NCBI RefSeq assembly: GCF_000336775.1
Contig: NZ_AOLJ01000012.1
Location: 1-64,000, forward strand
Direction of reading: 5' to 3'
Origin: Haloferax gibbonsii ATCC 33959
Lineage (GTDB): Archaea > Halobacteriota > Halobacteria > Halobacteriales > Haloferacaceae
Length of the DNA: 64,000 nt
Part shown: positions 1,971-55,439 of the stretch, piece after piece
Layout of the letters: each line of letters opens with the position of its first letter
Numbering within the stretch: position 1 is the stretch's first letter
Translations under genes and position numbers: made by a program
Notes under the pieces: model-generated
Databases searched by the model: none
Told to the model about the DNA's origin: nothing
The model's input: the letters and a program-made list of their open reading frames with translations, nothing else

Positions 1971-4451
1971 ATGCGAACTGCGGACCTGACGGGCCTGCCG
2001 ACGGGGATTCCCGAGGCCCTCCGCGACGAGGGTATCGAGGAGCTGTACCCGCCGCAGGCCGAGGCCGTCGAGGCCGGCCTGACGGACGGCGAGAGCCTCG
2101 TGGCCGCCGTTCCGACGGCGAGCGGGAAGACGCTCATCGCCGAGCTGGCGATGCTGTCGAGCGTCGCGCGCGGCGGGAAGGCGCTGTACATCGTCCCGCT
2201 CCGGGCGCTCGCCTCCGAGAAGAAAGCCGAGTTCGAGCGCTGGGAGGAGTACGGCATCGACGTGGGCGTCTCGACCGGCAACTACGAGTCCGACGGCGAG
2301 TGGCTCTCCTCGCGCGACATCATCGTCGCCACCTCCGAGAAGGTCGACTCACTCGTCCGGAACAACGCGGCGTGGATGGACCAACTCACCTGCGTCGTCG
2401 CCGACGAGGTCCACCTCGTCGACGACAGACACCGCGGGCCGACGCTGGAGGTCACGCTGGCGAAGCTCCGCCGGCTCAACCCGAACCTGCAGGTCGTCGC
2501 GCTCTCGGCGACCGTCGGCAACGCGGGCGTCGTCGCCGACTGGCTCGACGCGGAACTCGTCAAGTCCGACTGGCGACCCATCGACCTCAAGATGGGCGTC
2601 CACTACGGCAACGCCGTCTCCTTCGCCGACGGGAGCCAACGCGAGGTGCCGGTCGGCCGCGGGGAGCGACAGACGCCCGCGCTCGTCGCCGACGCGTTGG
2701 AGGGCGACGGCGACGGCGACCAGGGCTCCTCGCTCGTCTTCGTGAACTCGCGGCGCAACGCCGAGTCCGCGGCCCGCCGCATGGCCGACGTGACGGAGCG
2801 GTACATCACCGGGGACGAGCGCGGTGACCTGGCGGAACTCGCCGCCGAGATACGCGACGTCTCCGACACCGAGACCTCCGAGGACCTCGCCGCGGCGGTC
2901 GCCAAGGGCGCGGCGTTCCACCACGCGGGGCTCGCCGCGGAGCACCGAACCCTCGTCGAGGACGCCTTCCGCGACCGACTCATCAAGTGCATCTGCGCCA
3001 CGCCGACGCTCGCCGCCGGCGTCAACACCCCGAGTCGCCGCGTCGTCGTCCGCGACTGGCAGCGCTACGACGGCGACTACGGCGGGATGAAGCCGCTCGA
3101 CGTGCTCGAAGTCCACCAGATGATGGGTCGCGCCGGTCGGCCCGGCCTCGACCCCTACGGCGAGGCGGTGCTGCTCGCGAAGGACGCCGACGCCCGCGAC
3201 GAACTGTTCGAGCGGTACATCTGGGCCGACGCCGAGGACGTGCGGTCGAAGCTCGCGGCCGAGCCCGCGCTGCGGACGCACCTGCTCGCCACCGTCGCCT
3301 CCGGCTTCGCCCACACCCGCGAGGGACTGCTCGAATTCCTCGACCAGACGCTCTATGCGACCCAGACCGACGACCCCGAGCGACTCGGACAGGTGACCGA
3401 CCGCGTGCTCGACTACCTCGAAGTGAACGGGTTCGTCGAGTTCGAAGGAGAGACGATACGGGCGACGCCCGTCGGCCACACCGTCTCGCGGCTCTACCTC
3501 GACCCGATGAGCGCCGCCGAAATCATCGACGGCCTCGAGTGGGCGGCGGACCACCGAACCGAGAAGCTCCGGGCGCTCGCGGGCGAGACGCCCGAGAAGC
3601 CGAAGCGAGCGCGGAGCGAATCCGACGACGAACCCGGCGGCTTCCAGCGGGCCAGCGAGATGGTCGCGGCAGAGAGCGGCGACGCGGGAGACGGGACGGG
3701 GGCGGACGACGGCGACGACAGCGACGACGCCGACGAGTTCGAGGCGGACCGGACGTATCCGACGCCGCTCGGCCTCTACCACCTCGTCTGCCGGACGCCG
3801 GACATGTATCAGCTCTACCTGAAGTCCGGCGACCGCGAGACCTACACCGAACTGTGCTACGAGCGCGAACCGGAGTTCCTCGGGCGCGTCCCCTCTGAGT
3901 ACGAGGACGTGGCGTTCGAAGACTGGCTGTCGGCGCTGAAGACCGCGAAGCTCCTCGAAGACTGGGTCGGTGAGGTCGACGAGGACCGCATCACCGAGCG
4001 CTACGGCGTCGGCCCCGGCGACATCCGCGGGAAGGTCGAGACGGCCGAGTGGCTCCTCGGCGCGGCCGAGCGACTCGCCTCCGAACTCGACCTCGATTCC
4101 GTGTACGCGGTCCGCGAGGCGAAAAAGCGCGTCGAGTACGGCGTCCGCGAGGAGCTGCTCGACCTCGCCGGCGTCCGCGGCGTCGGCCGAAAGCGCGCCC
4201 GACGGCTGTTCGAAGCCGGCGTCGAGAGTCGGGCCGACCTCCGCGAGACCGAGAAATCGCGCATCCTCGCCGCGCTCCGGGGTCGCAGGAAGACCGCGGA
4301 GAACATCCTCGAAGCCGCGGGTCGGAAGGACCCCTCGATGGACGAGGTGGACGAGGACGACGCGCCGGAAGACGCCGTTCCCGACGACGCCGGCTTCGAG
4401 ACGGCCAAAGAGCGCGCCGACCAGCAGGCCAGTCTGGGTGATTTCGAATGA
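1971..4451 (+). CDS. hel308: ATP-dependent DNA helicase Hel308
   Basis: Superfamily 2 3'-5' helicase of 826 residues, the usual length for archaeal Hel308 (HelQ/Mus308 relatives), acting at stalled replication forks and in recombination. Visible motifs: Q-motif region near Q29, Walker A VPTASGKT (47-54), DEVH box (145-148), SAT (179-181), motif VI Q383-MMGRAGR, an acidic disordered insert near residues 540-590, and a helix-hairpin-helix beginning near 729 ([16 protein letters not shown]). The C-terminus QASLGDFE (Q819, L822, F825) looks like a PCNA-interacting peptide. The stop overlaps the start of cgi121 by an ATGA. A TATA-like stretch (ggcttaaacc) lies about 27 bases before the ATG. Confidence 0.97.
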
Positions 4452-4942
4452 GGCTCGTCGAAGCCGAGGCGACCGTCTCGGACCTCGATTCGTTCATCGC
4501 GGTCGTCGGCGACGTGGCCGACGAGACGGGCGCGACGGTGCAGGCGTTCGACGCCCGGTACGTCGTGGACCGCGAGCACCTCGAACGGGCGACCGAACTC
4601 GCCGACCGGGCCATCGGCCGCGGCAACGAAATCGCCCGCGACCGGGCCGTCGAAATCCTCCTCTACGCCAGCGGCCGCCGGCAGATTAACCGCGCGTTCG
4701 AAATCGGCGTCTCGGAGGGGACGCTCCCCGTCGTGATTCTCGTCGACGGCGGCGACGAAGAAGACGCCGAGGCCGCGCTGTTCGACCGACTCGACCTCGA
4801 ACCCGCGGAGACCCTCGGCGACTACGACGAAGCGCTCGTCCGCGAGGTGTTCGACGTGGGCGAGACGGAATTGCGCGTCGCCGACGGCGACCTCCCCGCA
4901 CTGGTCAAAGAGCGAGTCGCGCTGCTCGCGGTCGAACGCTAA
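4448..4942 (+). CDS. cgi121: KEOPS complex subunit Cgi121
   Basis: A 164-residue protein matching archaeal Cgi121, the KEOPS subunit that binds the tRNA 3' end and stimulates Bud32 during t6A37 synthesis. Diagnostic stretches are [34 protein letters not shown] and [14 protein letters not shown]. The start overlaps the hel308 stop (ATGA), so translation is coupled and the two form an operon. The Hel308-Cgi121 pairing recurs in haloarchaea, which may be only co-expression or may hint at a link between KEOPS and genome maintenance (inference). Confidence 0.95.
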
Positions 4943-5000: not shown

Positions 5001-5058
5001 CTCCACTCGAAACATACCCCTTGGGTTTCTGAAACCTACCCCTTCGTTTCAACTGGAG
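5001..5058. repeat. Cluster of three ORB-like elements
   Basis: A strong minus-strand ORB-like 21-mer occupies 5038-5058 (CTCCAGTTGAAACGAAGGGG then T on the minus strand). A weaker minus-strand copy sits at 5016-5036, sharing the AAGGGGT end, and a plus-strand left half (CTCCACTCGAAAC) starts at 5001. They fill the space between the cgi121 stop and the tRNA-Gln 3' end, 12 kb from the origin. Confidence 0.5.
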
Positions 5059-5102
5059 AACAGGGGACGGCGCGGCCTCATCGAGAGTAGAATGCTGAGA
5101 AG

Positions 5103-5175
5103 TAGTCCCACCAGGATTCGAACCTGGGTCGTTGCCCCCAGAAGGCAACAGGATTGGCCACTACCCCATGGGACT
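5103..5175 (-). tRNA. tRNA-Gln (anticodon CTG)
   Basis: A 73-nt cloverleaf without intron. Acceptor AGTCCCA pairs with TGGGACT, discriminator is A, and no CCA is encoded. The anticodon arm is TTGCC-TTCTGGG-GGCAA, giving anticodon CTG (reads CAG, Gln). The T-loop is GGTTCGAATCC. A TATA-like box (TTTACAAATACC on the minus strand, about 5199-5210) lies at a suitable distance before the tRNA 5' end. The gene is divergent from purO. Confidence 0.95.
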
Positions 5176-10165: not shown

Positions 10166-10975
10166 GTGACCGCGGTCGAGGAACTGTTCGTCTCGCTCGC
10201 GGGGTCGAACCCCGTGATGCAGGGCCTCCTCGGGGGCATCGTCATCGCCGGCATGAACATGCTGGGCGCGCTTCTCATTCTCGTCTGGCGCGACCCCTCG
10301 AAGCGCTCGCTCGACACGCTTCTCGGCTTCGCCGCCGGCGTCATGCTCGCCGCGAGTTTCACGAGCCTCATCCTCCCCGGCATCGAGGCGGCGGGCGGGA
10401 GTCCGATTCCCGTCCTCGTCGGCTTCGTCATCGGCGTCGTCGTCCTCGACCAAGCGGACCTGTGGATTCCGCACGTCCACATCCTCGTGACCGGCAAGAC
10501 CCGGACGGACGCCCCTGAGACGGAAACGAAGATGGCCTCGGTTATCCTGTTTATCGTCGCCATCACCATCCACAACATGCCCGAGGGCCTCGCCGTCGGG
10601 GTCGGCTTCGGCTCCGGCGACCTCGGGACGGCAATCCCGCTGATGCTCGCCATCGGCATCCAGAACATCCCCGAGGGGCTGGCGGTCTCCATCGCCGCCG
10701 TCAACGCCGGCCTCCGAAACACGACCTACGCGACGTTCGCTGGCATCCGCGCCGGTCTCGTGGAGATTCCGCTCGCCGTCTTCGGCGCGTGGGCCATCCA
10801 GTACGCCTCGGCGCTCCTCCCCTACGCGATGGGCTTCGCCGCCGGCGCGATGCTGTTCGTCATCTCCGACGAAATCGTCCCCGAGACGCACTCGAACGGC
10901 CACGAGCGCGTGGCGACGTTCGGGACGATGGTCGGCGTCATCGTGATGCTCTATCTCGACGTGACGCTCGGGTAG
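10166..10975 (+). CDS. ZIP family metal transporter
   Basis: A 269-residue membrane protein with about eight hydrophobic segments. The two signature metal-binding helices are present: HNMPEG (136-141) and QNIPEG (166-171), typical of the GufA/ZIP branch that carries Zn2+ or other divalent cations into the cytoplasm. The GTG at 10166 starts right before the first amphipathic helix; in-frame TTG/GTG codons at 10112-10115 would add a hydrophilic 17-18 residue tail without family support. A TATA-like gcatacatac lies near 10091-10100. No metal regulator is adjacent. Confidence 0.88.
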   Translation: MTAVEELFVSLAGSNPVMQGLLGGIVIAGMNMLGALLILVWRDPSKRSLDTLLGFAAGVMLAASFTSLILPGIEAAGGSPIPVLVGFVIGVVVLDQADLWIPHVHILVTGKTRTDAPETETKMASVILFIVAITIHNMPEGLAVGVGFGSGDLGTAIPLMLAIGIQNIPEGLAVSIAAVNAGLRNTTYATFAGIRAGLVEIPLAVFGAWAIQYASALLPYAMGFAAGAMLFVISDEIVPETHSNGHERVATFGTMVGVIVMLYLDVTLG

Positions 10976-11031: not shown

Positions 11032-11052
11032 TTCGAGTGGAAGCGAAGGGGT
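11032..11052 (+). repeat. Weak ORB-like 21-mer
   Basis: TTCGAGTGGAAGCGAAGGGG followed by T. It shares the GCGAAGGGGT end and spacing with the origin ORBs but has a divergent left half. It is in the convergent gap between the ZIP transporter and the flavin oxidoreductase. Confidence 0.3.
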
Positions 11053-11096: not shown

Positions 11097-12224
11097 TCAG
11101 TCGTCGGCGAGCGGCGGGTCCGACGGGACCTCGTGGTCCGAGAGCCCGGCAGTCGGCGCGAGGAACTTCGCCGGGTCGAACGCGTCGAGGTCGTCGCCGG
11201 CGGCCACGCGCGCCGGCCAGTCCGGGTTGGCGAGCGCGCTCGTCCCCAGCGTGAACAGGTCCGCGCCGGCGTCGACGGCGGCACGCGCCGCGTCCGGGTC
11301 GCCGAGACCGCCGTTGGCGATAACGACCGTGTCGTCCGTGACGTACTCGGCGGCGGCCTCGGCGAGCGAGGGACCGTCCGCGCCGAAGGTCGGGCTCGTC
11401 GCGTCGGTCTCGGTCGTGTGGACGTAGTCGGCTCCGGCGGCCGAGAGCGCCTCGAAGAAGACCGCGGCCGCGTCCTCGCCCTCGGGCCACTCGTAGTCGC
11501 CGTCGGTCACTTTCTCCTGCGAGACGCGGACGCCGACGACGAACTCCTCGGGGACCGCGTCGGCGACCGCAGAAAGGACCTCGGCGGGGAACTTGACGCG
11601 AGACTCGGGCCCGCCGCCGTACTCGTCGTCGCGCTGGTTCGCGTCCGCCGCGAGGAACTCGTTGAGCAGATAGCCGTTCGCGCCGTGGAGTTCCACGCCG
11701 TCGAAGCCGGCTTCGACCGCGTTCCTCGCCGCCTGTACGAAGCCCTCACGAGCGGTTTCGAGGTCCGCCTCGTCGGCCGCCTTCGGGACGGCGAACTCGC
11801 CGCTTCCGCCGTAGGCCTCCGCCTTCTGGCCGTCGGGCTGGACCGCGGAGGGCGCGAGCGTCCGGTCGCCGTCGAGGTGCGGGTTCCCCTGCGACTGCGC
11901 CCCGGCGTGCATCAACTGCGCGAAAATCGGCGTGTCGACCTCGTGGACGGCGTCCGTGACGTTCGTCCACGCCTCGACGTGGTCGTCGGTGACGAGCCCC
12001 GGCTGGTTCAGATAGCCCTGGCTGTACGCGTCGTCCGTGTAGACGCCCTCGGTGACGAGGAATCCGAACCCGCCGTCGGCGAACTTCCGGTAGTAGTGGG
12101 CCATCTCGTTCGTCGCCAACCCCTCGTCGGTGGCGCTGATACGCGTCATCGGTGCCAACCCGGCCCGGTTAGCGAGCGACAGGTCGTTCAGGCTCGTCGC
12201 GTCGAACAGCGCGTCGTCAGTCAT
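11097..12224 (-). CDS. Old-yellow-enzyme-type NADH:flavin oxidoreductase
   Basis: A 375-residue FMN-dependent TIM-barrel enzyme of the OYE family. Evidence: N-terminal NRAGLAPMTRISA, substrate-loop LMHAGAQS, the ELHGANGYLLNEFL segment that follows the FMN-binding strand, NQRDDEYGG, and the C-terminal phosphate-binding VIANGGLGD and GTSALANPDW. Such enzymes reduce alpha,beta-unsaturated carbonyls or nitro compounds; the natural substrate is unknown. It has no fused FeS/NADPH domain, as in short OYEs. The start MTDDALFD is chosen because the longer frame to 12512 runs antisense through polymerase D. Confidence 0.92.
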   Translation of the reverse strand: MTDDALFDATSLNDLSLANRAGLAPMTRISATDEGLATNEMAHYYRKFADGGFGFLVTEGVYTDDAYSQGYLNQPGLVTDDHVEAWTNVTDAVHEVDTPIFAQLMHAGAQSQGNPHLDGDRTLAPSAVQPDGQKAEAYGGSGEFAVPKAADEADLETAREGFVQAARNAVEAGFDGVELHGANGYLLNEFLAADANQRDDEYGGGPESRVKFPAEVLSAVADAVPEEFVVGVRVSQEKVTDGDYEWPEGEDAAAVFFEALSAAGADYVHTTETDATSPTFGADGPSLAEAAAEYVTDDTVVIANGGLGDPDAARAAVDAGADLFTLGTSALANPDWPARVAAGDDLDAFDPAKFLAPTAGLSDHEVPSDPPLADD

Positions 12225-12358: not shown

Positions 12359-13951
12359 TCAGGAGAACTTCCGAACCGTCATGTTCAGCGTGTCGAGGTC
12401 GACGATGGGGGCGTAGCCGGCGTCGGGGTCGATGTTGACGGACTTCTGGAAGTCGGTCTGGGCCTGCCAGCAGCCGGAGTTGACCGCGAGAACGTTGTGG
12501 TACTTGCCCCACCCGAGCTTGTGGACGTGGCCGGTGTGGAAGATGTCGGGCACGTCCTCCATGACGAGGTAGTCGAGTTCCTCGGGCGCGAGGCGGGTGT
12601 GGCCCCCGAACTGCGGCGCGACGTGGCGCTTTTTCAGGAGCTGATACATCGCCTTGTGCGGCTCGTCGTAGCTCGCCTTATCCGCCGGCAGCTCGGCGAT
12701 GACCTCGTCGAGCGAGACGCCGTGGTACATGAGAACGTTGACCCCTTCGAGCGTGATCATCGAGGGATTGCTCGTGATTCGAGCGTCGTGGGCCGACATG
12801 ATGTCGCGGAGTTCGTCGTCGAAGCCGGGCTGTGGCTCCGCGAGTCGGACGGCGTCGTGGTTGCCCGGAATCATCACGATGTCGAGGTCGCCGGGCACCG
12901 ATTTGAGGTGCTCCGAGAACGACTCGTACTGCTCGTAGATGTCGATGACGTCGAGTTCCTCGTCCTGATTCGGATAGACGCCGACGCCCTCGACCATGTC
13001 GCCGGCGATGAGGAGGTACTCGATGCGCTCCGCCTCCTCGGTGTGGAGCCAGTCCGCGAACCGGTTCCACGCGTCGGCCATGAACTCCTGGCTGCCGACG
13101 TGGACGTCCGAGATGAGCGCCGCCTGCACGTCCCTGTCGGCGGTGTTGGGGCGGTGGCTCCGCGGCACGTCGGGGAAGTGCATCGAGTCGACGAAGAGGA
13201 TGCCCGCGTCGCCAGAGAGCGTCCCCTGCACCGCGATGCACTCGTCCATGAGGAGTTCGTCGACGTAGCCCGCGATGTCCTTGTCCTTCATCACGAGACA
13301 GGGGAACGTCCCCGTCGTGTCTTCGAGTTCGATAATCCAGTGGCCGCTCTTGGTGGAGCGAACGTCGTCGACGAGGCCGATGAGCTCCGCGTCCTCGCCG
13401 CCGGACATGTTCGAGATGGCCTTCGCGGGGCGGTGGTTGACGCGCCCGCGGAGCATCTTCGAGAGTTTCTCGTAGCGGTCGCGGAACACCTTCACGAAGT
13501 CGTCGTACTCGCCGGTGCCCGTCGACTGGCCGGTCATGTCGTTGGCGATTTCGAGGGACCGAAGCGCCGGGTCGACGTTCCGCCCGGTCGGCTCTCCCTC
13601 GGCTTCGGCTGGAGTCGATTGAGCGGTGTGGTCCGCGTTGTCGTGCGATGTTGCAGCGGAAACAGGGGGGTCTGACGCGGCGGTGGCAGACGCGTCGGCG
13701 TCCGTAGCCCGCGCGGCGGCCGAGCCGGTCGATTCCGTTCCCGGCGGGTCCGCGGCGGGGGCGGACGCGAGCACCTCGCGGACGTGGTCGGCGGTGATGC
13801 GAAGCGCGTCGTCCGGGACGGCTTCGACGACGCGGGCGAGGGTGCGGCCGGGGTCGTCGGAGCCGGCGATGAGGGTCACGGCCTCGCGTTCGGCGTTGTA
13901 GCCGCGACCGACGAGCGCCCGGACGATGCGCGCCGGCGTCTCCAGTGGCAC
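12359..13951 (-). CDS. polB: DNA polymerase D small subunit DP1 (3'-5' exonuclease)
   Basis: The proofreading subunit of the archaeal replicative polymerase PolD. Numbered from the GTG at 13951 it has 530 residues: an N-terminal helical domain, a disordered Ala/Ser/Asp linker of about 60 residues, an OB fold (near 185-255), then a calcineurin-like phosphodiesterase with SDVH (281-284), AGDMVEG (316-322), GNHD (363-366) and GHVHKLG metal ligands. A TATA-like TTTTT at 13975-13979 lies 27 bases before the GTG at 13951, so that start suits a leaderless mRNA; the GTG at 13969 would sit upstream of transcription. Divergent from sec11b. Confidence 0.95.
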   Translation of the reverse strand: MPLETPARIVRALVGRGYNAEREAVTLIAGSDDPGRTLARVVEAVPDDALRITADHVREVLASAPAADPPGTESTGSAAARATDADASATAASDPPVSAATSHDNADHTAQSTPAEAEGEPTGRNVDPALRSLEIANDMTGQSTGTGEYDDFVKVFRDRYEKLSKMLRGRVNHRPAKAISNMSGGEDAELIGLVDDVRSTKSGHWIIELEDTTGTFPCLVMKDKDIAGYVDELLMDECIAVQGTLSGDAGILFVDSMHFPDVPRSHRPNTADRDVQAALISDVHVGSQEFMADAWNRFADWLHTEEAERIEYLLIAGDMVEGVGVYPNQDEELDVIDIYEQYESFSEHLKSVPGDLDIVMIPGNHDAVRLAEPQPGFDDELRDIMSAHDARITSNPSMITLEGVNVLMYHGVSLDEVIAELPADKASYDEPHKAMYQLLKKRHVAPQFGGHTRLAPEELDYLVMEDVPDIFHTGHVHKLGWGKYHNVLAVNSGCWQAQTDFQKSVNIDPDAGYAPIVDLDTLNMTVRKFS

Positions 13952-14967: not shown

Positions 14968-16641
14968 TTAGTTGTCGAACCGCGCCTGCACGAACGGCTG
15001 TGCGCTCTCGATGTCGCCGAGCCGGGAGTCCGTCAGCAGGACGGCCTCGGTCTCGTCGATGGGGACAGAAAGACTGATTTCCTTGGTCCGGCCGTAGCGA
15101 CCCTTCGAGACGACGACGGCGTTGACGATGCCGAGCATGTCGAGTTCCGAGATGAGGTCGGTGACGCGGCGCTGGGTGAGTACGTCGGCGTCGATCTCCT
15201 CGCAGAGGCGCTTGTAGATGTTGAACACCTCGCCGGTGTTGATGTTGCGGACGCCGTTTTTCTCCAGGAGGATGATGGCGAAGAGGACGATTTTCGACTG
15301 CGTGGGGAGGGTACGGACGACCTCGACCACCCGGTCGAGTTCGATTTTGTCCTGCGCCTGCCGGACGTGTGCCTCCTCGACGGTGTCGGCCTGCCCGCGC
15401 TCTGCGAGCTCGCCGGCCGTGCGGAGCAGGTCGAGCGCGCGCCGGGCGTCACCGTGTTCCTGCGCGGCGAAGGCGGCGCACAGCGGAATCACGTCGTCGG
15501 TGAGCGCGCCGGGCTTGAACGCCACGTCGGCGCGGTGCTGGAGGATGTCGCGGAGCTGGTTCGCGTCGTACGGTGGGAAGACGATTTCCTCCTCGCCGAG
15601 GCTCGACTTGACCCGGGGGTCGAGGAAGTCGGTGAACTTCAGGTCGTTCGAGATACCCATGATGGAGATGCGGGAGTTGTCGAGTTCGGAGTTCATCCGC
15701 GAGAGGTTGTAGAGGGTGTCGTCGCCCGACTTCTCGACCAGTTTGTCGATTTCGTCGAGCATGATGACGACCACGCGCTCCTTGTAGTCGACGGCGTCGA
15801 AGAACGTCGTGTAGACCCGGTCGGTCGGCCACCCGGTCATCGGCACCGTCTCCATCTCGTCGGCGTCGTCGTCGAGTTCCGCCGCGCGCTCGTCTATCTC
15901 GGCGATGGAGTCGTAGGGCGTGTCCGCGAGGGCGTTCGGGTCTTCCGTCGCCCGCGTGCGCATCTCGTCGAGGCGTTCCTGTTCGGCCTCGATGCGTTCG
16001 ACGTTCTTCTCGATGAACTTGTTCGCCAACTGCGCGAGCACGCGGTACTGCGTGTCCGTCACCTCGCAGTTGATGTACTCGACCTCGCAGGGCACGTCGT
16101 ACTTCTGGGAGGTGGATTCGAGTTCCTGGCTGACGAACTTCGCGCTCGCGGTCTTCCCAGTCCCCGTCTTCCCGTAGATGAGGATGTTCGACGGCGTCTC
16201 CCCGCGCAGGGCGGAGACGAGAATCGTCGCCATCTGGTTTATCTGGTCGGTCCGGTGAGGGAGTTCGTGCGGGGTGTACGACGGACGAAGGACTTCCTTG
16301 TTCTCGAAAATCGGCTCGCCGGCGAGGAGGTCGTCGAACAGCCCCTTCGAACCCTCGTCGTCGTTGAGGACGACCTTGTCGAGACCGACGTCGGGGTCTT
16401 TGTGCTGGTCGAGGTCCTCGTCGGGCGCGTCGGCGTCGGGGCCGATGCTCGCCTGAATGTCGATGTCTTCGGGGGAGACGTCGTCCTCGGCGGCTGGTGT
16501 CGGTGTCTCGGAGGACGCATCGTCAGCGGACGCGTCGGTACTGGGTGCATCGCCGGAGTCGCCGTCGACGGCGCTGTCGTCCGACGTGCTGTTCCCGACT
16601 TCTCCTCGTGCGCCGCCTCGCGGATTCTCTTCCTCGTCCAT
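14968..16641 (-). CDS. orc1: Orc1/Cdc6 replication initiator
   Basis: A 557-residue origin-recognition AAA+ protein that binds ORB elements and loads MCM. An acidic disordered N-terminus (1-100) precedes the ATPase: Walker A GKTGTGKT (157-164), Walker B MLDEID (294-299), sensor 1 GISND, and sensor 2 GDARRAL. An acidic insertion between Walker A and B (about 215-268) is typical of haloarchaeal Orc1. The C-terminal winged helix includes NTGEVFNIYKRLCEEI and QRRVTDLISELDMLGI. It is transcribed away from the adjacent origin, and an ORB lies 8-28 bases before its ATG, suggesting autoregulation. Confidence 0.97.
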   Translation of the reverse strand: MDEEENPRGGARGEVGNSTSDDSAVDGDSGDAPSTDASADDASSETPTPAAEDDVSPEDIDIQASIGPDADAPDEDLDQHKDPDVGLDKVVLNDDEGSKGLFDDLLAGEPIFENKEVLRPSYTPHELPHRTDQINQMATILVSALRGETPSNILIYGKTGTGKTASAKFVSQELESTSQKYDVPCEVEYINCEVTDTQYRVLAQLANKFIEKNVERIEAEQERLDEMRTRATEDPNALADTPYDSIAEIDERAAELDDDADEMETVPMTGWPTDRVYTTFFDAVDYKERVVVIMLDEIDKLVEKSGDDTLYNLSRMNSELDNSRISIMGISNDLKFTDFLDPRVKSSLGEEEIVFPPYDANQLRDILQHRADVAFKPGALTDDVIPLCAAFAAQEHGDARRALDLLRTAGELAERGQADTVEEAHVRQAQDKIELDRVVEVVRTLPTQSKIVLFAIILLEKNGVRNINTGEVFNIYKRLCEEIDADVLTQRRVTDLISELDMLGIVNAVVVSKGRYGRTKEISLSVPIDETEAVLLTDSRLGDIESAQPFVQARFDN

Positions 16642-16648
16642 CGTGAAT

Positions 16649-16669
16649 ACCCCTTTGTTTCAAGTGGAA
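16649..16669 (-). promoter_or_regulatory. ORB element in the orc1 core promoter
   Basis: On the minus strand TTCCACTTGAAACAAAGGGG then T, matching the origin ORB at 18 of 21 positions. It ends 8 bases before the orc1 ATG and overlaps the space between a TATA-like CTATTCC (about 16668-16674) and the start codon. Orc1 bound here would occlude the promoter. Confidence 0.75.
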
Positions 16670-17439: not shown

Positions 17440-17460
17440 ACCCCTTCGTTTCGTGTGGAA
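17440..17460 (-). repeat. ORB element
   Basis: Minus strand TTCCACACGAAACGAAGGGG then T, differing from the 17790 ORB at one base. It is the first strong ORB left of the unwinding element. Confidence 0.85.
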
Positions 17461-17518
17461 ACGGGTAAAACACGCTTCCGGAGAAATCGAGGGTCTGAGG
17501 ATTTTAGCGACCGTCCTA

Positions 17519-17539
17519 ACCCCTTGGTTTCCTCTGCAA
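17519..17539 (-). repeat. Degenerate ORB element
   Basis: Minus strand TTGCAGAGGAAACCAAGGGG then T. The GGAAACCAAGGGGT part is intact and the left half is degenerate. Orientation is the same as its neighbours. Confidence 0.6.
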
Positions 17540-17593
17540 TTAAGTGGGTGTTCTCCAGTTCGACGGGAAACCCCTGGGTCTCGCATCCCCCAC

Positions 17594-17614
17594 ACCCCTT
17601 CGTTTCGGGTGGAG
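17594..17614 (-). repeat. ORB element, left member of the inverted pair
   Basis: Minus strand CTCCACCCGAAACGAAGGGG then T. Twenty of 21 bases equal the plus-strand ORB at 17790-17810, so the two form a near-perfect inverted pair 196 bases apart around the AT-rich element. Confidence 0.9.
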
Positions 17615-17645
17615 GCGTGAGAGGGTGGGGAGGGGGTCTCGGTGG

Positions 17646-17742
17646 TCTTTAGATACAGATAGTTTTATTACTCATATTGTCATACCGTAACCGTACTGGG
17701 GCAAAAAGAGATATTATTGTACTCCCCTAGAATAGAATTAAC
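17646..17742. other. AT-rich duplex unwinding element
   Basis: The strongest long AT-rich stretch of the origin, with runs such as GATAGTTTTATTACTCATAT, GGCAAAAAGAGATATTATTG and AGAATAGAATTAACG, in a chromosome that is otherwise very GC-rich. It lies midway between the inverted ORBs, as expected for the site of strand opening. Confidence 0.85.
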
Positions 17743-17789
17743 GTCCCACCGCCGTCTAGCGGTCTCCCCCCACCCACCCCTTCGGGCCG

Positions 17790-17810
17790 TTCCACCCGAA
17801 ACGAAGGGGT
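17790..17810 (+). repeat. ORB element, right member of the inverted pair
   Basis: TTCCACCCGAAACGAAGGGG then T, used here as the reference ORB. It is followed by a G run (GGGGTGGGGG), and the flanking CACCCACCCCTTCG to its left makes a local inverted repeat (17771-17816). Confidence 0.9.
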
Positions 17811-19335: not shown

Positions 19336-20358
19336 ATGCCACATCAATGCACCACGTGCGGTAAGGTGTTCCCCGACGGCTCGAAGGAGATGCTCTCGGG
19401 GTGCCCGAGCTGCGGCGGCAACAAGTTTCAGTTCAAGCCCGCGTCGAGCGGGAGCGCTCCCGCGAGCGCGAGCGACGACGCGACGTCGACGGGCGGCGCC
19501 GGAACGCGGGACCTGACCTCCTCGGCAGCCGACGCCGTCCGAGACCGCGCGCAGCAGCAGTCCCACCCCGACACGACCGACGAGGAGTCGATGACCGTCA
19601 GCGACTGGGCGAACGCGAATGCGGACGCGGACGCCTCACAGCGAACCGAGACTGTCGATGCCGCCGGCTCGACCCAGAACGAGCCGTCGCCGACCGACGC
19701 GGTCGACGCAAGTGACGCGGTCGACGCAAGTGACGCGGCCGACGCAAGCGACGCGGTCGACGACCCCGAAGCCAAACCCCGCGGTTGGGGCGAATGGCCG
19801 TCTGCGCCCGGCGAGTCTCCGGGGGCAGACCCGCAGGACCCGGAAGCATCGCGGAACGAATCGCGGGCCCAATCGGCCTCGGAGCAGGCCAGCCGCTCGC
19901 GGGGACCGGATTCGCCCCCGAACCGCGAGCCGGGGAAAATCAACGCGCGCGAGACGGACGAAGACAACTCCCAGAAGAGCGCGCGGAGCGACGTCGTCAC
20001 CCCCGAGGAACTCGCCGCTGCCGACGCGAACCGGCGCGGCTCGCCGGCGGAGACGCCGTCCGAAGCGCCTTCCGGCCCCGACCCCGACGCGGCCGCCGGT
20101 CAGCCCGCCGACGCCGCACCCACGGACGCGGACGGTACGGTCATCGAGCCGTCGTCAGACGACCGACCCAACCTGGACCAGCTCCGCGAGGAGCTCAACG
20201 ACCAGTTCGAGAGCATCAAAATCGTCAATCCCGGTCAGTACGAACTCAATCTCATGGAACTGTACGACCGCGACGAGTACATCATCTCGCTCCGCGAGGA
20301 CGGCCGCTACGTCATCGAAGTCCCGGACTCGTGGGGACCGGGCAACCGCGAAGACTGA
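19336..20358 (+). CDS. oapC: Origin-associated zinc-ribbon protein OapC
   Basis: A 340-residue modular protein. The N-terminus is a zinc ribbon (CTTCGK at 5-10 and CPSCGG at 23-28), the middle 230 residues are an acidic, disordered Asp/Ser/Ala/Pro linker containing six-residue DAVDAS repeats, and the C-terminal 65 residues (NLDQLREELNDQFESIKIV...) form a small conserved alpha/beta domain with VNPGQYELNLMELYDRDEYI. It is third in the oap operon. The layout resembles a scaffold tethering two interaction domains (inference). Confidence 0.9.
   Translation: MPHQCTTCGKVFPDGSKEMLSGCPSCGGNKFQFKPASSGSAPASASDDATSTGGAGTRDLTSSAADAVRDRAQQQSHPDTTDEESMTVSDWANANADADASQRTETVDAAGSTQNEPSPTDAVDASDAVDASDAADASDAVDDPEAKPRGWGEWPSAPGESPGADPQDPEASRNESRAQSASEQASRSRGPDSPPNREPGKINARETDEDNSQKSARSDVVTPEELAAADANRRGSPAETPSEAPSGPDPDAAAGQPADAAPTDADGTVIEPSSDDRPNLDQLREELNDQFESIKIVNPGQYELNLMELYDRDEYIISLREDGRYVIEVPDSWGPGNRED
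19696..19763 (+). repeat. 18-base tandem repeat within oapC
   Basis: Units GACGCGGTCGACGCAAGT at 19696-19713, 19714-19731 and a near-copy at 19732-19749, followed by a partial unit. They encode DAVDAS repeats in the disordered linker. Length should vary between strains. Confidence 0.8.
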
Positions 20359-20388: not shown

Positions 20389-20409
20389 ACCCCGTTGTTT
20401 CCGGTGGAA
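20389..20409 (-). repeat. ORB-like 21-mer downstream of oapC
   Basis: Minus strand TTCCACCGGAAACAACGGGG then T, matching the reference ORB at 18 of 21 positions. It lies 30 bases past the oapC stop, 2.6 kb from the unwinding element, and just upstream of the promoter of a 37-codon gene. Confidence 0.6.
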
Positions 20410-20703: not shown

Positions 20704-23319
20704 ATGCCGGCCTCCGAGGACGTTGCGTACGTGGACCACCCGCTACTCGCGCCGTCGTTCATCGAGCGACGGCTCTACCAGATTCGCCTCGCCGGTACCG
20801 CGCGCAACGGCCACACGCTGGTCTGTCTTCCCACCGGCCTCGGGAAGACGACCGTCAGCCTGCTCGTCACGGCCCAGCGGCTCCACGACGTCGGCGGGAA
20901 GTCGCTGTTTCTCGCGCCCACGAAGCCGCTCGTCCAGCAGCACGCCGACTTCTACCGCGAGGCGCTGAACGTCCCGGACGACGAAATCGTCGTCTTCACC
21001 GGCGACGTTCGGCCCGACGACCGGGCCGAACTCTGGCAGGAGGCCCAGATAGTTATCGCCACGCCGCAGGTCATCGAAAACGACCTCATCGGCAACCGTA
21101 TTTCGCTTCGGGACGTGACGCACCTCACCTTCGACGAGTGCCACCGCGCGAGCGGCGACTACGCCTACGTCTACATCGCGGAGCGTTACCACGCCGACGC
21201 CGAAGACCCGCTCGTCACGGGGATGAGCGCCTCGCCGGGCGGCGACGAGGAGGCCATCCTCGAAGTCTGTGAGAACCTCGGCATCGTCGACGTGGAGGTG
21301 ATGACCGAGGAGGACGCCGACGTGTCGGAGTACACCCACGACACGGACGTGGAGTGGAACCGCATCCAGCTCCCCGACGAGATTCTGGAGATACGCGACG
21401 CCCTCAACGAGGTCATCACCGACCGCCTGGAGAAACTCAAGCAGTTGGGCGTCACCAAGTCGACGAAGCCCGATATCTCCCAGAAGAAGCTCAACCGGAT
21501 GCGCGCGGAGCTACAGCGACTGATGAACGCCGACAAGTCGGAGGGCTACAAGGGTATGTCCACGCACGCGGAGGTGATGAAGCTCCGCCGGGCGGTCGAG
21601 CTCGTCGAGACCCAGTCGGTCGAGTCGGTCCGGCGGTACTTCGAGCGCCAGCGCAACGCCGCCCGGTCGTCGGGCGCGTCGAAGGCCAGCCAGCGACTCG
21701 TCGCCGAACCGAAGGTCCGCGAGGCGATGCGGAAAGCCGAGTCGTTCGACGGCCTCCACCCGAAGTTCAGGAAGACGCGCATCCTCCTCGCGGAGACGCT
21801 CGGCATTCAGGACGGCGAGCGCGTCATCGTCTTCACCGAGTCCCGCGACACGGCCGAGGCGCTCACGGAGTTCCTCTCGGAGAGCTTCTCGGTCCGGCGG
21901 TTCGTCGGACAGGGCGACCGCGAGGGCTCCGACGGGATGACGCAGAAGGAACAGCAGGAGACCCTCGACAAGTTCCGAAGCGGCGAGTTCGAGGTGCTGG
22001 TCTCGACCTCCGTCGCGGAGGAGGGCCTCGACGTGCCCGAGGTCGACCTCGTGCTCTTTTTCGAACCCGTGCCGACGGCCATCCGGTCCATCCAGCGGAA
22101 GGGTCGGACCGGTCGTCAGGCCGACGGTCGCGTGGTCGTCCTCCTCGCGGAGGACACCCGCGACGAGGCGTACTTCTGGATATCGCGCCGCCGCGAGAAG
22201 ACGATGCAAAACGAGCTTCGCGACCTCAAGGGCGCGGCCGACGACCTCGAAGCCGAACTCGACCCCTCCCAGCGCGACCTCTCGGCGTTCGCGGGCGACG
22301 ACGGCAGTTCCGCCGGCAACGCCGGGAGTTCCACCGGAAACGAGGGGGTTGACGCCGCGGCCGGTGACGATGCAAACGTGGCGTCGGACGCGGAATCGGC
22401 CGCTGAATCAGCCGCCGCGTCGACCGCCACGAACGGAGAGACCGCGGTCGCCGCGTCGACCGCCACGAACGGAGAGACCGCGGTCGCCGCGGCGACCGAC
22501 TCGGACGGGCAGTCGGGCCTCGCCGACTTCGGTCCCTCCGACGAGGAGTTGGCGCGGGCGGACGACGGCGACGACGGCGACGACGACGACGGCGACGATG
22601 AAAACGACGGCGACGGCGACGAGGCGGACGACCCGGCCACCGTCGCCGCGGCGGGAACGGACGACGAGGAGACCGTCGAAATCGTCGTCGACCAGCGCGA
22701 ACTCGACTCCAACATCGCCCGCACTCTCTCGAAGCGCGAGGACCTGACGACCCGGTTGGAGACGCTCGCGGTCGGCGACTACGTCCTCTCGGACCGCGTC
22801 GCGGTCGAGCGAAAGAGCGTCTCGGACTTCCTCGACACGCTCACGGGCGGCGACCGCTCGATATTCGAGCAGATAGCGGACCTCACGCGTCACTACGCCC
22901 GGCCGCTTCTCATCATCGAGGGTCGTGGTCTCTACGAGGAGCGGAACATCCACCCCGGCGCGATTCGCGGGGCGCTGTCGTCGGTCGCGGTCGATTTCAA
23001 CGTGAGCGTGCTGTTCACGGAGGACGAAGACGACACCGCGGAGATGCTGGCGACCATCGCCACCCGCGAGCAGACGGACCGCGAGCGCACCGTGAGCGTC
23101 CACGGCGGCAAGAGCGCGAAGACGCTCGACGAGCAACAGGAGTACGTCGTCTCGGCCATCGCCGACATCGGCCCGGTCACGGCGCGGACGCTGCTCGAAG
23201 CGTTCGGGAGCGTCGAGGCGGTCATGACCGCCAACGAGGACGACCTCAAAGAGGTCCGCGGCGTCGGCCAAGTCACCGCCGAGCGAATCCGCGAGGTCGT
23301 CGGGGCGGAGTATCGCTGA
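20704..23319 (+). CDS. hef: Hef helicase-nuclease (FANCM/XPF family)
   Basis: An 871-residue fusion of an SF2 helicase and an XPF nuclease that acts on stalled forks. Helicase: Walker A LPTGLGKTT (42-50), DECH box (144-147), the helical insert, and motif VI QRKGRTGRQ. A disordered linker (about 520-650) contains a 36-base tandem duplication and QSGLADFG (Q603, L606, F609), a candidate PCNA-binding peptide. The ERCC4 nuclease carries VERKS (701-705). Tandem helix-hairpin-helix motifs end the protein (IADIGPVTARTLLEAFGS, VRGVGQVTAERIREVV). Full-length Hef with both domains intact. Confidence 0.97.
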   Translation: MPASEDVAYVDHPLLAPSFIERRLYQIRLAGTARNGHTLVCLPTGLGKTTVSLLVTAQRLHDVGGKSLFLAPTKPLVQQHADFYREALNVPDDEIVVFTGDVRPDDRAELWQEAQIVIATPQVIENDLIGNRISLRDVTHLTFDECHRASGDYAYVYIAERYHADAEDPLVTGMSASPGGDEEAILEVCENLGIVDVEVMTEEDADVSEYTHDTDVEWNRIQLPDEILEIRDALNEVITDRLEKLKQLGVTKSTKPDISQKKLNRMRAELQRLMNADKSEGYKGMSTHAEVMKLRRAVELVETQSVESVRRYFERQRNAARSSGASKASQRLVAEPKVREAMRKAESFDGLHPKFRKTRILLAETLGIQDGERVIVFTESRDTAEALTEFLSESFSVRRFVGQGDREGSDGMTQKEQQETLDKFRSGEFEVLVSTSVAEEGLDVPEVDLVLFFEPVPTAIRSIQRKGRTGRQADGRVVVLLAEDTRDEAYFWISRRREKTMQNELRDLKGAADDLEAELDPSQRDLSAFAGDDGSSAGNAGSSTGNEGVDAAAGDDANVASDAESAAESAAASTATNGETAVAASTATNGETAVAAATDSDGQSGLADFGPSDEELARADDGDDGDDDDGDDENDGDGDEADDPATVAAAGTDDEETVEIVVDQRELDSNIARTLSKREDLTTRLETLAVGDYVLSDRVAVERKSVSDFLDTLTGGDRSIFEQIADLTRHYARPLLIIEGRGLYEERNIHPGAIRGALSSVAVDFNVSVLFTEDEDDTAEMLATIATREQTDRERTVSVHGGKSAKTLDEQQEYVVSAIADIGPVTARTLLEAFGSVEAVMTANEDDLKEVRGVGQVTAERIREVVGAEYR
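22414..22485 (+). repeat. 36-base tandem duplication in the Hef linker
   Basis: Two identical 36-base units (22414-22449 and 22450-22485) encode AASTATNGETAV repeated in frame. The repeat adds 12 residues to the disordered linker without changing the frame. Confidence 0.85.
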
Positions 23320-55281: not shown

Positions 55282-55302
55282 TTCGACCCGAAACGAAGGG
55301 GT
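55282..55302 (+). repeat. ORB-like 21-mer
   Basis: TTCGACCCGAAACGAAGGGG then T. It differs from the reference origin ORB at 17790 at two bases only (CC changed to GA region), making it one of the closest copies outside the origin, 37 kb away. Confidence 0.6.
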
Positions 55303-55418
55303 TCGGCGAGTTGGGTGCCGACCCCGACGCACCCCGTGCAAACGTCTCTCACAGTAGTCTACGGGGGTACGGTTCGGGACGTTCGACTCGAACTACAGTC
55401 GGCCGCCGGCGGGCGACT

Positions 55419-55439
55419 TTCGACCCGAAAAGAGGGGGT
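55419..55439 (+). repeat. Second ORB-like 21-mer
   Basis: TTCGACCCGAAAAGAGGGGG then T. Same orientation as the copy at 55282 and 137 bases from it, with a shared left half. Confidence 0.45.

Follow-up and report, generated by a model that had tools for sequence, protein, structure and literature searches.

In Haloferax gibbonsii ATCC 33959 (GCF_000336775.1), the protein-coding gene cgi121, which ends at 4942 on the + strand, and a tRNA-Gln gene on the - strand (5102-5175) converge on a gap of 159 bp that holds a cluster of ORB-like sequences. Coordinates are those of the window, the whole stretch of 64,000 nucleotides that was analyzed (contig NZ_AOLJ01000012.1, positions 1-64,000, forward strand). 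The cluster lies about 12.6 kb from the ORBs of the replication origin oriC1 (17440-17810). The features of the locus are the following:

4448-4942, + strand: cgi121, encoding a KEOPS subunit (NCBIfam NF011465), upstream of the cluster and convergent with tRNA-Gln
5001-5013, + strand: half-ORB with the head CTCCACTCGAAAC and without the G-string, pointing towards the full ORB
5016-5029, - strand: weak third copy GAAACCCAAGGGGT, with a core lengthened by one base and no TCCA head, about 22 bp away from the full ORB
5038-5058, - strand: full oriC1-type ORB CTCCAGTTGAAACGAAGGGGT, a 16/16 match and the core of the finding
5102-5175, - strand: tRNA-Gln(CTG), predicted by ARAGORN, with the cluster on its 3' side

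The oriC1-type ORB is the box that Orc1 is expected to bind. Its sequence, TCCANNNGAAACGAAGGGGT, is matched 16/16 at 5038-5057 on the - strand (5038-5058 includes the leading C), and this match contains both the conserved core TCCAnnnGAAAC and the G-string GAAGGGGT. The combination of core and G-string is missing from the other two elements (5001-5013 and 5016-5029). An earlier note on this DNA had described three ORB-like sequences within 58 bases, 12 kb from the origin, one of them strong. The strong box is borne out, but of the remaining two one is half an ORB and the other a weak copy. Across Haloferax the cluster is composed of one full ORB and a half-ORB pointing the other way.

The full ORB stands out both in the genome and among related species. 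The box occurs with 0 mismatches four times in the 4.06-Mb genome (30 contigs), three times within oriC1 and once at 5038-5058, which a genome-wide scan thus identifies as the only such site outside oriC1. Shuffling 430-bp stretches 600 times never gave a match with fewer than 4 mismatches. When 13 Haloferax species are compared with the window, identity is 97.2% for the full ORB, 94.7% for the half-ORB and 97.6% for the tRNA, against 52% and 68% for the flanking parts of the gap. In sequence terms, this conservation of the full ORB relative to the gap amounts to a footprint. The middle element (5016-5029) is about 77% identical across Haloferax; it is under no clear constraint and may be nothing at all. 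A chance match is possible for this weak element, but for the full ORB nothing speaks in its favor, and the genome-wide scan, the shuffles and the footprint, together with the occurrence of the box in many genera, leave a chance match with a probability close to nil. The earlier note had asked whether the motif is equally frequent in random intergenic sequence; the scan, the shuffles and the field counts given below indicate that it is not.

Occurrence of the box beside cgi121 and tRNA-Gln

An ORB in the same orientation lies downstream of cgi121 in Halogeometricum, Halogranum, Halonotius, Halegenticoccus, Halobium and some Halobellus. Halogeometricum has two ORBs after cgi121, 46 bp apart. 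In the other families examined the ORB is missing downstream of cgi121, the sole exception being one genome (G106) that carries it on the other strand. There, a perfect ORB in the opposite orientation follows cgi121 after 24 bp, and cgi121 is about 40 kb from oriC1; this may represent an independent gain at the same gene.

The site does not belong to either of its two neighbors. Assignment to cgi121 is rejected since in two sets of genomes, g5 and g14, the ORB stays with tRNA-Gln, and in g5 it is kilobases away from cgi121. Assignment to tRNA-Gln is likewise rejected since in Halogeometricum the ORB stays with cgi121 and the tRNA gene lies kilobases away. Within the family, the ORB is kept in 29/37 genomes that have cgi121 within 30 kb of orc1 and in 1/13 of those in which cgi121 is farther away (Fisher p 1e-5). 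Shared descent confounds this comparison: the independent relocations number only about five, and in one of them (G006, 64 kb) the site is retained. Several of the genomes whose cgi121 is close to orc1 have no ORB there.

The earlier note's remark that mobile DNA often lands at tRNA genes concerns a matter separate from the ORBs. In four Haloferax species (elongans, marinum, profundi and mucosum), about 85 bp that duplicate the 3' end of tRNA-Gln are inserted between the ORB and the tRNA gene. This duplication could be the scar of an integrated element. The window lacks it, and in Haloferax the presence of the ORB does not depend on it.

The field of ORBs around oriC1

The window contains further ORBs outside oriC1, referred to here as satellites. 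They are listed below with the origin and the initiator gene; the gene boundaries around several of them were judged by eye.

1458-1477, + strand: satellite ORB in the gap upstream of hel308, 1 mismatch (0 mismatches at the matching place in two other genomes, G065 and G281)
11033-11052, + strand: satellite ORB between converging reading frames, 2 mismatches (G065 and G281 have the same sequence type at the corresponding position)
13594-13671, no strand assigned: degenerate inverted pair with 58-bp spacing in the gene for DP1, with 5 mismatches at 13594 and 4 at 13652; in other genomes the pair is well preserved
14971-16641, - strand: orc1, the initiator gene (NCBIfam NF001625, TIGR02928)
16649-16668, - strand: ORB 8 bp upstream of the orc1 start codon, 1 mismatch
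17440-17810, no strand assigned: oriC1, with ORBs at 17440 (-), 17519 (-), 17594 (-) and 17791 (+) and an AT-rich stretch at about 17640-17760
20389-20408, - strand: satellite ORB between oapC and hef, 2 mismatches
55283-55439, + strand: two satellite ORBs 137 bp apart, 1 and 3 mismatches (matching site pair in G065)

The site at 11033 is flanked by a reading frame ending at 10975 and an oxidoreductase gene ending at 11097; like the site at 5038, it thus lies between converging genes and away from promoters. The position of an ORB immediately before the orc1 start suggests that Orc1 regulates its own gene. The gene for the origin-associated protein OapC (19336-20355) adjoins oriC1, and the ORB at 20389-20408 follows directly after it. 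Within hef, an ORB-like match at 22330-22349 coincides with an apparent helicase motif V (STGNEGVD) and is probably a protein-driven coincidence; it is included in the totals and was not used alone as evidence.

Whole genomes of 39 haloarchaea from 8 families were scanned for ORBs with at most 2 mismatches, oriC1 being placed in each genome by visual inspection of the inverted ORB pair and of the orc1 match where one was listed. The scan found 323 sites, 117 within 1.5 kb of oriC1 and 206 outside. Between 1.5 and 50 kb from oriC1 lie 126 of the 206 outside sites, where an even spread would give 6.1; p-values for this excess are not literal since the genomes share ancestry, and an orthologous site enters the count more than once. 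The density per Mb falls with distance, from 162 (1.5-6 kb) through 32 (6-20 kb), 15 (20-50 kb), 4.4 (50-100 kb) and 3.2 (100-200 kb) to 0.47 (200-500 kb) and 0.30 beyond. This gradient is seen again in each family sampled, and all but one of the genomes (38/39) carry a satellite within 50 kb of oriC1. As a control, the pattern read backwards gave 0-3 matches per genome and strand. Since the search pattern was taken from the oriC1 of Haloferax, diverged boxes are missed. A repeat search in the flanks of the other Orc paralogues of this genome gave no usable motifs. The oriC1-centered field to which the 5.0-kb cluster belongs is found in all eight haloarchaeal families scanned.

In six distant members of the phylum (G370, G348, G338, G364, G328 and G341), ORB matches likewise form groups set apart from one another, in some cases by 6-12 kb; in G328 they extend over about 150 kb. 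There may be a wider origin field outside the haloarchaea.

An inverted ORB pair inside the DP1 gene

In most genomes an inverted ORB pair with its G-strings outward lies about 3-5 kb from oriC1, inside the gene for DP1, the small subunit of PolD (identified by Pfam DNA_pol_E_B). The pair was recognized in 18/21 genomes by allowing at most 9 mismatches over both boxes and a spacing of 45-74 bp; a spacing of 58 bp was not imposed. The start-to-start spacing is nevertheless 58 bp in 16/18 and 55 bp in the other two (G055 and G192). Between the boxes are about 12 residues whose number is conserved and whose sequence is not.

Codon choice at the box positions departs sharply from that in the rest of the 18 genes. 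Valine is encoded by GTT in 14/14 cases (compared with 5.6% of the valine codons in the remainder of the gene), threonine by ACT in 14/14 (4.8%), glycine by GGA in 11/11 (5.7%) and proline by CCA in 16/16 (4.3%), a test that is partly biased as similarity to the box was the criterion by which the pairs were picked out, although the distribution of third bases is still far beyond the gene background. At positions with a different amino acid, the third base is still the same (ACT, GCT, CCT, AGT). Protein conservation is rejected as the cause of the pair: the third bases persist through amino acid changes, and the codons used are rare ones. The simplest reading is that the pair is under selection as DNA, in which case the demands of an initiator-type site can leave their mark on the coding sequence of a replication gene.

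Possible roles and related systems

The best explanation of the 5.0-kb cluster, given about an even chance of being correct, is that it is a conserved auxiliary site, predicted to bind Orc1, in the oriC1-centered field, and that its role would be initiator titration. Since the satellites carry the same type of box as oriC1, Orc1 would be expected to bind them. Lying close to oriC1, they would double in number right after the origin fires, and the doubled sites would take up free Orc1 and so damp re-initiation. Titration has been proposed for datA of Escherichia coli and for the ORB cluster oriC2D of Haloarcula hispanica; here it would be spread over scattered sites, among which the one between cgi121 and tRNA-Gln would be strong. 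Counted in favor are the perfect box, the footprint at the level of the tRNA, the occurrence in many genera, the field, the link with distance from orc1, the DP1 pair and, as a precedent from experiment, oriC2D. Against this, a handful of satellites per chromosome compared with the 4-5 boxes in oriC1 implies a small titration capacity unless Orc1 is scarce, and plain titration has no need of the constant 58-bp arrangement within the DP1 gene. The earlier note had proposed a decoy or titration site resembling datA of Escherichia coli; the proposal fits boxes that are of the origin's own type, conserved and concentrated near oriC1, but other roles fit the same pattern.

The satellites might instead mark or fold the origin domain, with bound Orc1 bridging or condensing the oriC1 region or serving segregation in the manner of parS. 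The steady decay of the field over about 200 kb on either side of oriC1 is consistent with such a role. Moreover, the fixed, inverted 58-bp arrangement in the DP1 gene suggests a defined protein-DNA complex over mere capacity, and is perhaps explained better in this way than by titration. However, no segregation role of Orc1 in haloarchaea was found in the open-access literature, and the sites are few and differ between genomes. An organizing role is the main rival of titration, though clearly less probable. A broader form of the proposal is put forward tentatively, as a minority possibility: in haloarchaea, Orc1 boxes, the 58-bp DP1 pair included, would mark out a whole origin domain some 100-200 kb in size, and the initiator would also organize or segregate replicated origin regions, with the 5.0-kb cluster among the strongest anchors.

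Two further roles are improbable. The satellites could act as an antenna that raises the local concentration of Orc1 around oriC1 and aids firing, for which the same distance gradient can be cited. Yet in Haloarcula hispanica, plasmids with a minimal oriC1 replicate without distant sites, and the known extra ORB cluster of this organism acts negatively (PMC3936714); the antenna is accordingly given a small chance. A similarly small chance is given to a local role in transcription, in which Orc1 bound between the converging cgi121 and tRNA-Gln genes would block read-through or would itself be regulated by read-through from the tRNA gene. The box follows the cgi121 stop in an orientation that is constant within the family, and datA of E. 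coli, located behind tRNA genes, is modulated by read-through from them, which is an analogy only (PMC10950094). In some genera, however, the ORB is beside only one of the two genes, and a local role leaves the origin-centered field unexplained. A remnant origin, which the earlier note also considered, or a minor one is disfavored and very improbable: an oriC1-type ORB near orc1 could be taken as a trace of one, but the best 40 bp are 55% AT compared with 75% in oriC1, with no AT-rich unwinding element; there is one full ORB and no full inverted pair; the nearest orc gene is orc1 (14971-16641), which is 10 kb away and not adjacent; and purifying selection on the site is unlike a remnant.

Among haloarchaea, titrating ORB clusters are known (oriC2D of H. 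hispanica), and no report of an origin-centered ORB field was found in the open-access literature. The available passages of the review literature contain no mention of scattered oriC1-type boxes. In Haloferax volcanii, deleting oriC1 and orc1 is reported to reduce the ploidy, and this was read as a sign of a further role in regulation. The field touches the questions of how archaea stop an origin from firing again and how haloarchaea handle sister origins, and a field of the initiator's own boxes offers concrete sites to delete or recode in H. volcanii. Sites for an initiator or a partition protein that are scattered near the origin are familiar from bacteria, as DnaA-box clusters around oriC in Bacillus and as parS around bacterial origins. 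These systems use other proteins and other boxes than the ORBs at 5.0 kb.

The box at 5038-5058 is the same as the oriC1-type ORBs described for haloarchaea, including the G-string of halophiles (PMC3528665). That survey covered only the intergenic regions next to orc/cdc6 genes, so the scattered sites were outside its scope (PMC3528665). The datA locus of E. coli groups initiator-binding sites at a distance from the origin, on the downstream side of tRNA genes (PMC10950094). It differs in involving the bacterial DnaA and IHF-dependent ATP hydrolysis and shares no homology with the 5.0-kb cluster, the likeness being one of layout and supposed role. In H. hispanica, oriC2D comprises 11 ORBs in 722 bp directly downstream of cdc6E and lowers the activity of oriC2, probably by taking up Cdc6E; a knockout was not obtained, and the copy-number effects were seen on plasmids (PMC3936714). 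The 5.0-kb locus, with one full ORB, is not a dense ORB cluster directly downstream of an initiator gene. Whereas oriC2D serves Cdc6E and oriC2 and lies beside its initiator gene, the 5.0-kb site is one strong ORB, 10 kb from orc1, in a scattered field; what the two have in common is ORBs outside the origin proper that are thought to titrate the initiator.
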